Shown here in pieces: positions 24,700-28,443 of a stretch of 33,805 bases of DNA (the first letter of the stretch is position 1; every line of letters begins with the position of its first letter). The translations under genes were made by a program, and so were the position numbers. The notes under the pieces were generated by a model, which saw only the letters and a list, made by a program, of their open reading frames with translations, was not told the origin of the DNA and made no database searches. Source of the stretch: Sneathiella sp. (GTDB lineage Bacteria > Pseudomonadota > Alphaproteobacteria > Sneathiellales > Sneathiellaceae). The DNA lies in the NCBI RefSeq assembly GCF_002694385.1, contig NZ_NZMB01000005.1, positions 469,473 through 503,277 of the forward strand, given 5' to 3'.

Positions 24700-26697
24700 C
24701 TACGCCACCATCAGGCTTTTCGTCTTTGGCAGTGTGACCGTGACGGTGGTGCCGACACCGTAGCTGCTGTCGATCTGCAATGTCCCGTGATGGGCGGCGA
24801 CGAAGGATTTGACGATCGAAAGGCCAAGCCCGACTCCCTCATGGGTAATGTCGGAGGAGCTATGCCCCTTGACGAAAGGTTCGGTGACCAGCGGCAGCTG
24901 ATCCTTGCGGATGCCCTCGCCGGTGTCGGCAATGGTCACGACAATCCCGTCGTTGCGGCAGCGGGCGGTGACGGTGATCTTGTCGCCGGTACGGGAGAAT
25001 TTCACGGCATTGGTCAGCAGGTTCAGGAAAACCTGCTGCATGGCCGTCTTGTCGGCAATGATTTCCGGCAATTCCGGCGCCGTGATCAGCGCCACCATGA
25101 TGCCCTGGCTTTCGGCCCGGTAGCGGATCGCCTTGACGCAATCGGCAAGCAGATTTTGCAGGCGCAGCGGCTCGGGCTGCAACTCGCGCTTGCCAAGCTC
25201 GATGGCGGAAATATCCAGCACCTCATTGATCAGCGCCAGCAGATGCCGTCCGCTATGGTTGATATCCTTGGCGTATTCGATGTATTTCACATTGCCGACG
25301 GGGCCGAAATACTGCCCCATCAGGATATCGGAAAAGCCGATGATGGCGTTCAGCGGCGTGCGCAGCTCATGACTCATGGTGGCGAGGAATTTCGACTTCG
25401 CCTGGCTGGCTTCCTCCGCTTTCATGAGGGCCTGGCGCAGCGCCTCCTCGGTGCGCTTGTTGCTGCTGATATCGGTGAGGGTGCCGCCCACGGCGATCAC
25501 CTCGCCCTGATCGTCCATGATCGGGAACATTTGCACGAAGGTGGGGACCTTCTTGCCGTCCACGCGCGGGCTCAGATATTCCTGTTCCACCATGTGCCGG
25601 TGGGTCATGATCTGTCGTTGCTGCCTGTCCACCTCTGCCGCATAGCCGGGCGGAAAGACATCGGTGGAGGACAGGCCTTTGACATCCACCCCCTGGGCGT
25701 TGAACCACTCATGCCATTTGGAATTGGCATGCAGATAGCGGAATTTCGCATCCTTGATAACGATGGCGGAGGGGGAGTTTTCAATAAAGGTGCGCAGCAG
25801 CTTGTCGCTGACCATGACTTTAAGCTGCCGCACCATGGCGAGATGGACCAGCCAGGCGATGGCGATGGACAGCAGGATCAGGATCGTCAGAACCAGCTCG
25901 TCGATGAGTGAACTGTGCGCCGCGATGGTGGCCGGCGTGGGCATCAGGTTGATGGTCCATTCCCGATTGCCGACGCGGATATGCTCATGATAGAGCGTTT
26001 CATCGGCGGTCAGGCCGTCCTCGCTGGAGAACACCAGACGTTTATTATCCATGATCACCAGTTGATATCTTTCGAGCAGGCCATTCTGCAGGGCCGTGCG
26101 GACGAGGGGATCACTGCGAAACACGATATTGACGAAGCTGGTGATGCGGTCCAGGCGGACAACCGGCACATAGGCGACAAAACCGATGCCGCCCTGCGTC
26201 AGGGCGAAGGGCGGTGTGATCTGCATGCGCTTCAGCTTCTCGGCCTGCCGGAAGGTGGGGCCGACGAAGGAGTGATTGCGAACGTCGAGATTTTGCACCT
26301 GCTCATTGCCTTTGAGCGGCGAGACCCAGCGGATAACGCCCATGCTGTCGATCCAGTTGATGGCCTGAAAATCGGTGAACAGCCTGTGGATATAGGTGGT
26401 GTGGTTCAGGAAGTCCTGGCGGCTGGTGAATTGTCCGACGGCCAGCGAATGGCGGAGCTGCTCGCCGATGGTGAGGCGGGTGGCGATATGCCCCTCCAGC
26501 CGGGCGGCGAGATTGGCCAGATCGCTTTTGACCTTGGTTTCAAAATCGTTGTTCTGTGCCGTCGGCATAAATGCCCAGATGAGAACAACCAGCAGGATCA
26601 TGGACGCGCCAATGGCCGCCGGCACGAAAGTCGTGCGGCGTGGCAACATCCGGATATGGCGCTTCAGCGCCGTAAGCGCAGGGGCGTGTGAAACCAT
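24700..26697 (-). CDS. Hybrid-free sensor histidine kinase with CHASE and PAS domains
   Basis: This protein has 665 residues from the chosen start. The order is TM1 (~23-43), a periplasmic CHASE domain (residues ~60-230, with NWIDSMGVIRWVSPLKGN and GFVAYVPV), TM2 (~268-290), a PAS domain with FIENSPSAIVIKDAKFRYLHAN, HisKA with phospho-acceptor His443 in SHELRTPLNAIIGFSDIL, and HATPase_c with NLLTNAVKFS, DTGEGI and GVGLGLSIV. There is no receiver domain and no neighbouring response regulator, so it is an orphan kinase. The frame is open 34 codons further upstream through AT-rich, non-coding-looking DNA; ATG 26697 was preferred, but its ribosome site is poor and ATG 26649 is also possible. Confidence 0.9.
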   Translation of the reverse strand: MVSHAPALTALKRHIRMLPRRTTFVPAAIGASMILLVVLIWAFMPTAQNNDFETKVKSDLANLAARLEGHIATRLTIGEQLRHSLAVGQFTSRQDFLNHTTYIHRLFTDFQAINWIDSMGVIRWVSPLKGNEQVQNLDVRNHSFVGPTFRQAEKLKRMQITPPFALTQGGIGFVAYVPVVRLDRITSFVNIVFRSDPLVRTALQNGLLERYQLVIMDNKRLVFSSEDGLTADETLYHEHIRVGNREWTINLMPTPATIAAHSSLIDELVLTILILLSIAIAWLVHLAMVRQLKVMVSDKLLRTFIENSPSAIVIKDAKFRYLHANSKWHEWFNAQGVDVKGLSSTDVFPPGYAAEVDRQQRQIMTHRHMVEQEYLSPRVDGKKVPTFVQMFPIMDDQGEVIAVGGTLTDISSNKRTEEALRQALMKAEEASQAKSKFLATMSHELRTPLNAIIGFSDILMGQYFGPVGNVKYIEYAKDINHSGRHLLALINEVLDISAIELGKRELQPEPLRLQNLLADCVKAIRYRAESQGIMVALITAPELPEIIADKTAMQQVFLNLLTNAVKFSRTGDKITVTARCRNDGIVVTIADTGEGIRKDQLPLVTEPFVKGHSSSDITHEGVGLGLSIVKSFVAAHHGTLQIDSSYGVGTTVTVTLPKTKSLMVA

Positions 26698-26888
26698 AGC
26701 GGCAATTTTAGTAAACAAATATTTAAAAAACCCTAAACACGGGCGCGGGAATGACGAAGAATTTACCGGAAAACTGGCTATTTTCGGCAAAGCGCCCATA
26801 GATCATAAGGTTATCAGAGGAAGGGTGATAGTTTGGCGGGATTATCTGTATATTTATTCGTTATATTCGGGCGTCATGACCATTTTTC
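26698..26888. other. AT-rich intergenic DNA upstream of the histidine kinase
   Basis: This is a gene-free stretch between the histidine kinase start and the sRNA candidate promoter, rich in A/T with oligo-A and oligo-T tracts. It presumably contains the kinase promoter on the minus strand, which I could not place with confidence. Confidence 0.5.
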
Positions 26889-26917
26889 TTGACATTCCAT
26901 ACCTGTTTTGCTATTAT
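26889..26917 (+). promoter_or_regulatory. Near-consensus sigma70 promoter
   Basis: A perfect TTGACA (26889-26894) is separated by 17 nt from TATTAT (26912-26917) on the plus strand. This is the best-matching promoter I saw in the window. No protein gene lies downstream on this strand before a hairpin at 26974; see the ncRNA entry. Confidence 0.6.
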
Positions 26918-26923
26918 ATAAAT

Positions 26924-27005
26924 ATCTTCAATACAGTTCCAGATTTATATGAAAACGCAATAAATGGCGTGAAAAAGCCGCCCTGACGGATCAGGACGGC
27001 TTTCT
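26924..27005 (+). ncRNA. Candidate small RNA, about 80 nt
   Basis: A near-consensus sigma70 promoter would start transcription near 26924, and a 13-bp hairpin at 26974-27003 would end it, giving an RNA of about 80 nt. The transcript holds only a four-codon frame, ATGAAAACGCAATAA, and no credible gene. It is convergent with the small membrane-protein gene, and the hairpin is shared. The plus-strand T-tail after the hairpin is short (TTTCT), which weakens the termination argument. I recognise no known RNA family. Confidence 0.4.
26974..27003 (-). terminator. Terminator hairpin shared by the small membrane-protein gene and the sRNA candidate
   Basis: A 13-bp stem (AAAGCCGCCCTGA against TCAGGACGGCTTT, one imperfect pair) has a CGGA loop. 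On the minus strand it is followed by TTTTTC, fitting the gene ending at 27022; on the plus strand the tail is TTTCT. Confidence 0.75.
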
Positions 27006-27021
27006 GCGTCAGCGGGAAGGC

Positions 27022-27423
27022 TCAGGCGGTGCGGGGCGTGTTATGGCCGAGACGCCGGAGGCTGACGGCTTCAACGGCGGTGAGGAGGGCGACGGCGACC
27101 GCCAGCAGCTCGATCACCAGCATCCCTTCGAAGGTCAGGCGGTCCTGGAAAATGAACAGGACAAGACCGCTGCCGATCACCCAGGCGATGTTGGCGGCGA
27201 TGATGGCCTTGACGAACAGCGGATTGATCTTTTTCCGCGTTGCGACCAGGGCGACATCGGCGGCGAAGATCACCAGGCCCGCCCCGAGCACATAGAGGAT
27301 CCAGGGCGCGATGCCCGTCCAGAGGGCCAGCGAGGGCGCGAAGAGAAGCGCCACCGCTCCCGCGAGAAGTGAGGCACCGGCGTCGATCAGCAGGGTGCCG
27401 CGAAGTATGTTTGCATGTTCCAT
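27022..27423 (-). CDS. Small four-helix integral membrane protein
   Basis: This 133-residue protein has four hydrophobic segments: LLIDAGASLLAGAVALLFAP, WILYVLGAGLVIFAADVALVA, AIIAANIAWVIGSGLVLFIF and MLVIELLAVAVALLTAVEAV. A short basic loop (ATRKKINP) separates helices 2 and 3. It has no charged residues of an obvious transporter active site, and I recognise no named family. I chose ATG 27423 because AAGGAG lies 8 nt upstream; the frame is open further. It is divergently transcribed from an XRE/MmyB-type regulator across a perfect palindrome, so it is probably that regulator's target. Confidence 0.75.
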   Translation of the reverse strand: MEHANILRGTLLIDAGASLLAGAVALLFAPSLALWTGIAPWILYVLGAGLVIFAADVALVATRKKINPLFVKAIIAANIAWVIGSGLVLFIFQDRLTFEGMLVIELLAVAVALLTAVEAVSLRRLGHNTPRTA

Positions 27424-27501
27424 ATCGTCATCTCCTTTGCAAATGTCTGCGCCGTCACGGGCGCCTGACATGCAGAATGAGGCGGGCAGGTTATCTTCTC
27501 A

Positions 27502-27518
27502 ATTACCTTCAAGGTAAT
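27502..27518. promoter_or_regulatory. Perfect 17-bp palindrome, probable operator
   Basis: ATTACCTTCAAGGTAAT is an 8-1-8 perfect inverted repeat lying between the divergent membrane-protein and regulator genes, 78 and 58 bp from their starts. On the plus strand a possible promoter (TTATCT at 27491, TAATGT at 27515) overlaps it. This is the expected place for autoregulation by the adjacent DNA-binding protein. Confidence 0.65.
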
Positions 27519-27576
27519 GTTCGCCGGTCTTTTTTCGCGCTATTGTATCGGCATGATCAGAGAAGGAGGCGAGAAG

Positions 27577-28443
27577 ATGACAGGGTCAGCCATGCAAACA
27601 CCGGTGTCCGGGCTGGGTCAGCTCCTCCGGCACTGGCGGCAGGTGAGGGGCATGAGCCAGCTCGATCTCGCCCTGGAGGCGGAGAGTTCGGCGCGGCACC
27701 TCAGCTTTATTGAGACCGGCCGCGCGCAGGCGAGCCGGGACATGGTGCTGCGGCTGGCGGAGGCGATGGAGCTGCCCTTGCGCGAGCGCAACCGGCTGCT
27801 CAATGCGGCCGGCTATGCGCCCGCCTATGCGGCGCGCACGTTGGGCGATGCGCAGTTTGACAAGGTGCGCGCGGCGCTCGATTTCATGCTGCGCCAGCAG
27901 GAGCCCTATCCGGCGATCGTCATGAACCGCGTCTTTGACGTGCTGATGATCAATCAGGCGGGGGCGAATATGCTGGCGATGCTGGGGCTCGCCCCCGGCG
28001 GGCCGGGCAAGGCCGCGGACGGCGCGCCGTCGCAATCGCGGGAGGGGCCGCCCAATATTCTCCGCCTGATGCTGCATCCGGCGGGGCTGCGGCCTGTGCT
28101 GAAGGATTGGGAGCGGGCGGCCGCGCATATGGTGGAGCGGGCGCACCGGCAGTTGACCGGCGCGGCGGCGGAGGATCCGCTGCGTCGCCTGCTTGATGAG
28201 GTGCTGGCCTATCCGGGGGTGCCGGAAAGTTTCACCCATCAGAATCCGTCCCTCGATGCGCTGCCGGTTCTGCCGCTGGAATTCGAGATTGAGGGCATGA
28301 CGCTGTCCTGGATCACCACCGTGGCGAGCTTCGGCACGCCGCAGGATATCACGGCGGAGGAAATTATGGTGGAAAGCTTTTTCCCCGCCAATGACGCAAC
28401 TGAAACCGCGATCCGCGCCCTGATGACAGAGGAGGAGACATAG
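27577..28443 (+). CDS. XRE-family regulator with MmyB-like ligand-binding domain
   Basis: This 288-residue transcription factor has an N-terminal helix-turn-helix (residues ~12-67: LGQLLRHWRQVRGMSQLDLALEAESSARHLSFIETGRAQASRDM). The C-terminal domain of ~180 residues is of the MmyB-like type (PYPAIVMNRVFDVLMINQAGANMLAML, and PLEFEIEGMTLSWITTVASFGTPQDITAEEIMVESFFPAN). Members usually repress a divergently transcribed neighbour and respond to a small, often fatty-acid-like or xenobiotic, ligand. ATG 27577 is preferred because AGAAGGAGG lies nine bases before it; ATG 27553 and TTG 27517 are in frame upstream. Confidence 0.9.
   Translation: MTGSAMQTPVSGLGQLLRHWRQVRGMSQLDLALEAESSARHLSFIETGRAQASRDMVLRLAEAMELPLRERNRLLNAAGYAPAYAARTLGDAQFDKVRAALDFMLRQQEPYPAIVMNRVFDVLMINQAGANMLAMLGLAPGGPGKAADGAPSQSREGPPNILRLMLHPAGLRPVLKDWERAAAHMVERAHRQLTGAAAEDPLRRLLDEVLAYPGVPESFTHQNPSLDALPVLPLEFEIEGMTLSWITTVASFGTPQDITAEEIMVESFFPANDATETAIRALMTEEET

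Follow-up and report, generated by a model that had tools for sequence, protein, structure and literature searches.

A predicted small-RNA gene in Sneathiella whose promoter and hairpin are conserved in position while the RNA body has diverged

The best promoter-like sequence of the window (i.e., the whole stretch of 33,805 nucleotides that was analyzed) has no gene directly behind it, which raises the question of what it would transcribe. The first-pass annotation, made from the letters alone, had proposed a small RNA (sRNA), with a near-consensus promoter (TTGACA-17-TATTAT) at one end and a hairpin at the other, situated between a histidine kinase and a small membrane protein. The features concerned are:

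24700..26799, - strand: CHASE-PAS sensor histidine kinase, divergent from the RNA gene
26889..26917, + strand: sigma-70 type promoter (-35 TTGACA at 26889-26894, 17-nt spacer, -10 TATTAT at 26912-26917)
26924..26973, + strand: predicted RNA body, putative start at ~26922-26926; unstructured, and alignable with the relatives at its last bases only, GGCGTGAAAAAGCCG
26949..26963, + strand: four-codon frame ATG AAA ACG CAA TAA, absent from the relatives
26974..27003, both strands: terminator-type hairpin, common to the RNA (+) and the convergent gene (-); it folds and has an aligned counterpart in the relatives
27022..27471, - strand: small hydrophobic protein, membrane-like by inspection, 149 aa as called (conserved part ~127-134 aa)

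The promoter proved to be as proposed. Matching the consensus at 11/12, it was the top site of the whole window and the sole one on either strand to reach at least 11/12 (five others reached 10/12), and a TG at 26909-26910 lies one base ahead of its -10 box. Between 22000 and 32000, eight promoter-like sites were found vs 3.7 expected from shuffles, and this site ranked best among them. Within the 3.6-Mb source assembly (G000; 30 contigs), the pattern TTGACA-N17-TAKTAT occurred a single time, at 26889.

The hairpin was likewise found where it had been placed, ~80 nt after the predicted start near 26924. An 84-nt RNA of the + strand folded with a stability that was equaled in two of 200 shuffles, and the U-run that follows the hairpin on this strand is poor (UUUCUG). 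On the - strand, where the fold reaches z -4.3, the hairpin is followed by UUUUU, thus it also suits the convergent gene. A terminator scan did not list this hairpin on either strand. The lead-in of the hairpin resembles GGYGTGARAAAGCCG, as it does in the terminal hairpin of those relatives whose RNAs are of the type described by R1 (a model built from the RNAs of ten relatives). As for the four-codon frame, it is present in the window as stated, but the relatives have no reading frame in common, and it is probably not a gene.

The check suggested in the first-pass annotation was conservation of both promoter and hairpin in relatives, and both turned out to be kept in position there, with a structured, covarying RNA between them. 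The unit of promoter, predicted RNA (~80-90 nt) and hairpin was present at the same place in eight close and two more distant congeners, in all of which it is convergent with the small membrane-protein gene (ten relatives' loci were chosen for also holding the kinase, while the flanks of the remaining homologues were read in search loci). The eight close relatives carry a -35 box of TTGACA (TTGACT in L057), a 17-nt spacer and a -10 box of TAGTAT; their promoters lie 132-139 nt from the neighbor's stop codon, vs 133 nt in the window. In L064 this distance is 171 nt, and in L017 TTGACA-17-TAATAT lies ~139 nt from the end of the match to the neighbor's protein. Of the more distant promoters, three are either weak by comparison or odd: that of L057, that of L063 (TTGACA with a poor -10, TAGTGC) and that of G013, which is unclear. 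Mean pairwise identity among the eight close relatives was 0.25-0.33 upstream and 0.44 in the last five bases before the promoter, and then rose to 0.85 across the promoter, followed by 0.83 over the adjoining 31 nt and 0.84 in the neighbor's gene; the jump at the -35 box therefore indicates that the conserved block starts at the promoter. By eye, the seven most distant homologues of the neighbor (L018-L024) showed no promoter-RNA-hairpin unit. At the G013 locus (L014) a promoter-like site with a pyrimidine-rich start lies 213 nt away; having no R1 match there, it was left out.

A separate trait of these promoters is a 12-base palindrome, TATACTAGTATA, which spans the -10 box in seven of the eight close relatives (L055-L058 and L060-L062), is broken in L059 and is absent in the window; it is possibly an operator.

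The RNAs of the relatives have a common layout: i) a 5' end that is rich in C and U (e.g., CCUUCCC) and unpaired; ii) stem-loop 1, which covaries and has a large loop; iii) the terminal hairpin. In a structure alignment of ten relatives, from which the window copy was excluded, the two helices comprised 20 pairs, with 96.4% of 197 cells paired and six of the 20 pairs altered on both sides. Neither the paired fraction nor the number of two-sided changes was reached in any of 500 shuffles (a control that ignores the relatedness of the sequences), the pair-type count was reached in three of 500, and slid alignments paired in only 28.9-46.3% of cells. Moreover, the RNAs of seven relatives, folded singly, gave z values of -2.9 to -6.0, and the held-out congener L063 (G022) showed the same layout (z -8.8) with an R1 match of 26.9 bits at the expected place.

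How widely such an RNA is found was assessed with R1. Across the genus, where only 150 first-look candidates per genome were scored, R1 matched at E<=1e-7 in 10 of 24 genomes, at one place each and always at this locus; these are the same ten genomes that were used to build R1 (46-94 bits). The search of the order yielded 10 of 25 genomes at E<=0.001. In a class sample of 385 genomes, searched with stricter filters (11 candidates scored per genome among the rows listed), one genome matched, a Sneathiella, and none outside this genus. Weak matches elsewhere (E 0.001-1) looked, where inspected, like common terminators or like the hairpin read on its opposite strand. Rfam 15 at gathering score had no match in the window or in the ten relatives' loci, and permissive searches of the same sequences returned only E>=0.45. 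A DNA search with 26800-27015 found only itself in its own genome; in 60 genomes it matched four, i.e., its own in full and three others in the hairpin part only, one of which (G008) is the orthologous place while the other two are unrelated terminators. Plasmid and phage records held no match to a relative's RNA gene. Among 28 homologues of the neighbor outside the clade, none had a convergent promoter of at least 10/12 within ~300 nt (random stretches: 0.36%), one of these flanks (L168) being unsure as the locus is cut.

The window copy departs from its relatives in the body. Over 58 nt the window body was 0.52-0.63 identical to the eight close relatives, vs means of 0.57-0.60 for its own shuffles, and in every comparison at least 35 of 200 shuffles aligned as well; the neighbor's gene is 0.73-0.76 identical between the window and the same eight. 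Both stem-loop 1 and the C/U-rich 5' end are missing, and the first 45 nt of the RNA are unstructured (an equally good fold was reached by 132 of 200 shuffles). R1 gave 14.3 bits on the window copy, from the hairpin part, and 14.4 bits on the opposite strand. With a body so unlike the R1 RNAs, the window copy is thus orthologous by position, not by sequence.

This change is probably derived, the window lineage having lost the C/U-rich start and the stem-loop, since i) in two of three gene trees the window falls within the clade whose members have the conserved body and ii) L062 and more distant species have a C/U-rich start and a stem-loop. In the kinase tree the window groups with seven of the eight close relatives to the exclusion of L062 (100/99); the tree of the neighbor's gene has the same nesting, more weakly (89/92), and that of the regulator gene described below (in which the L059 row is a wrong frame) does not resolve the placement of the window. 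The end branch of the window is long in the kinase and neighbor trees.

The surroundings of the RNA gene are constant on one side only. The convergent small membrane-protein gene (27022-27471) is its constant neighbor, with homologues of the protein in 20 of the 24 Sneathiella genomes, the window's own among them, and no match in Pfam and NCBIfam. The placement between this gene and the kinase, as first described, holds for the window, but the kinase is no constant neighbor: among the loci fetched it adjoins the RNA gene only in the window species, and in the ten relatives it lies 2.3-4.0 kb away. Beyond the membrane-protein gene, and divergent from it, is a gene for a helix-turn-helix regulator with an MmyB-like ligand-binding domain (27517-28443, + strand), which stands beside it in the relatives too.

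In L055-L064 the space between the kinase and the RNA promoter is a slot of variable genes, and its right edge is the -35 box of the RNA gene; in the relatives the RNA gene marks the edge of an exchangeable-gene slot, some of whose genes resemble known anti-phage genes. Comparison of frames placed a membrane-like protein of ~240 aa in eight of the ten slot loci (two copies in L057), and it was not seen in L062 or L063 among the frames compared. Other cargo includes a DRT5-like reverse transcriptase (L057:4751-6226; E 4.7e-191) whose gene stops 36 nt ahead of the -35 box, a retron type VI-like reverse transcriptase (L064:4048-4989; E 1.1e-82) beyond the ~240-aa gene, a PDC-M34A-like protein (L062:2260-2964; E 5.2e-16) and a weak PD-T7-5 match in L061 (E 1.5e-4); PADLOC, run on ten slot proteins, matched four at E <0.001 and left six without a match at E 0.01. 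None of the relatives' slot genes is present at the window locus, and the only relative of the ~240-aa protein in the same genome is on another contig (G000:C8:106786-107454, L156; 34% identity). A retron noncoding RNA was considered and rejected: among the cargo proteins scanned, reverse transcriptases occurred in two of ten relatives' loci (L057 and L064); none stood beside the window copy among the neighbors scanned; and loci that lack a reverse transcriptase carry the same kind of RNA.

Taken as a gene, the locus would work as follows. The strong sigma-70 promoter would make an RNA of ~80 nt that ends at the hairpin, which it has in common with the convergent membrane-protein gene; judged by position, the window gene would represent an sRNA gene specific to Sneathiella. 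In the relatives, the exposed CCUUCCC-type 5' end probably base-pairs in trans with Shine-Dalgarno regions of target mRNAs and so holds down translation. The window species probably still makes the RNA, with targets altered or lost: as the CCUUCCC-type motif is gone, the targets would have to differ or be absent. We regard it as reasonably probable, on comparative grounds, that 26889-27004 is a lineage-specific, stand-alone predicted sRNA gene in which promoter and hairpin were kept while body and targets were changed or lost. The comparison thus gives good support to the small-RNA reading proposed at the outset, with the qualification that the window body itself is not conserved.

The same locus could also be a remnant, in which the sRNA function was lost in the window lineage and the body decayed, with promoter and hairpin remaining and the convergent gene needing the hairpin. 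A body at shuffle level, without the first stem-loop and the C/U-rich motif, is what such decay would leave, and the convergent neighbor accounts for the hairpin; but no promoter of the window scores higher than this one, which has a TG before its -10 box and is closer to the consensus than those of the relatives, a state that is unexpected after decay that randomized the body. We consider a remnant unlikely, if a serious contender, and favor an RNA that is still made with a changed sequence over decay that has so far spared the promoter. Distinctly unlikely, by our estimate, is a more far-reaching version in which promoter and terminator form a conserved chassis around a rewritable body, yielding an sRNA with new targets, and in which the gene, as the edge of the anti-phage slot in the relatives, may interact with that slot.

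Three further explanations were weighed. The promoter might drive transcription toward the membrane-protein gene and into its 3' end, and this gene would then be tuned by antisense RNA from read-through, or by transcription as such, whatever the body; the convergent layout at a fixed distance, the weak U-run of the + strand and the freedom of the window body to change would all fit, but such a mechanism has no need of the conserved, covarying body and stem-loop of the relatives, and we credit it even less readily. Far less probable is a gene for a small peptide or leader peptide: besides the four-codon frame in the window there is a 12-codon GTG frame in three relatives (L055, L060 and L062), yet the frames of the eight close relatives have 6, 12, 17 or >26 codons (in L056 a stop follows after six), and no purine-rich ribosome site was seen ahead of them. 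Equally hard to credit is a chance promoter beside an ordinary terminator. By itself, TTGACA-N17-TAKTAT is barely more frequent in the 24 genomes of the genus than its reversed form (18 sites vs 14), but nine of the 18, including the single one of the window's genome, fall at this one locus, where the window promoter keeps the relatives' distance.

Candidate targets of the predicted sRNA, such as base-pairing by an Hfq-dependent trans-acting sRNA would require, were sought by crude searches, and none recurred. An 11-base complement of the 5' end had 22 exact sites in 24 genomes vs 55 for the reversed control, with four of these sites in the RNA gene itself; a 12-base complement of the loop had nine vs 16, with three of the nine in the RNA gene; and no common target gene was found among the remaining sites. 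Duplex energy with the ~240-aa gene was good in L057, where 0 and 6 of 100 shuffles came as low, middling in L058, where 11 of 100 did, and not good in L055, L059, L061 and L064 (the start codons in L056 and L060 being doubtful); this gene was dropped as a target. In L058 and L061 some cargo frames gave very low duplex energies, but trivially so, as they overlap the RNA gene.

Anti-Shine-Dalgarno sRNAs such as AbcR1 are short, with their own promoter, a terminal hairpin and a C/U-rich stretch that covers Shine-Dalgarno sequences. The Sneathiella RNA is similar in its short length, own promoter and terminal hairpin, and the exposed C/U-rich stretch of the relatives could cover Shine-Dalgarno sequences in the same manner; it differs in having no sequence or Rfam match, in that its target pairing is predicted, and in that the window copy is without the C/U-rich stretch. 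AbcR1 is named among such sRNAs in Alphaproteobacteria (PMC6234868). PmaR of Agrobacterium also has a C-rich single-stranded pairing region; it sits in a loop at a long stem, and its effect on targets is mostly activation (PMC6234868); unlike this, the C/U-rich region of the Sneathiella relatives is the 5' end, and it is absent in the window. There is likeness, too, to the trans-encoded sRNA families of Rhizobiales, defined by sequence, structure and a conserved neighboring gene (PMC3927594); those belong to another order, and the Sneathiella RNA was compared with Rfam 15 models only.

The locus would add an undescribed sRNA gene to a genus for which a single literature search on small RNA found no papers. 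The gene is apparently new, of a known type, and its copy in the window species is diverged in body. That the RNA body seems to be outlived by its promoter and terminator offers a way to study, by comparison of species, how sRNA targets are lost or changed.

On the other side of the promoter, the kinase may start near 26697 rather than at 26799. Kinase frames in the relatives have 664-708 aa, and since tblastn matches to the kinase begin at residues 9-50, the start near 26697 is tentative. An A/T-rich segment at 26705-26739 matches the kinase upstream regions of five relatives with 80-90% DNA identity; this is perhaps the kinase promoter, and would be a hint for the start near 26697.
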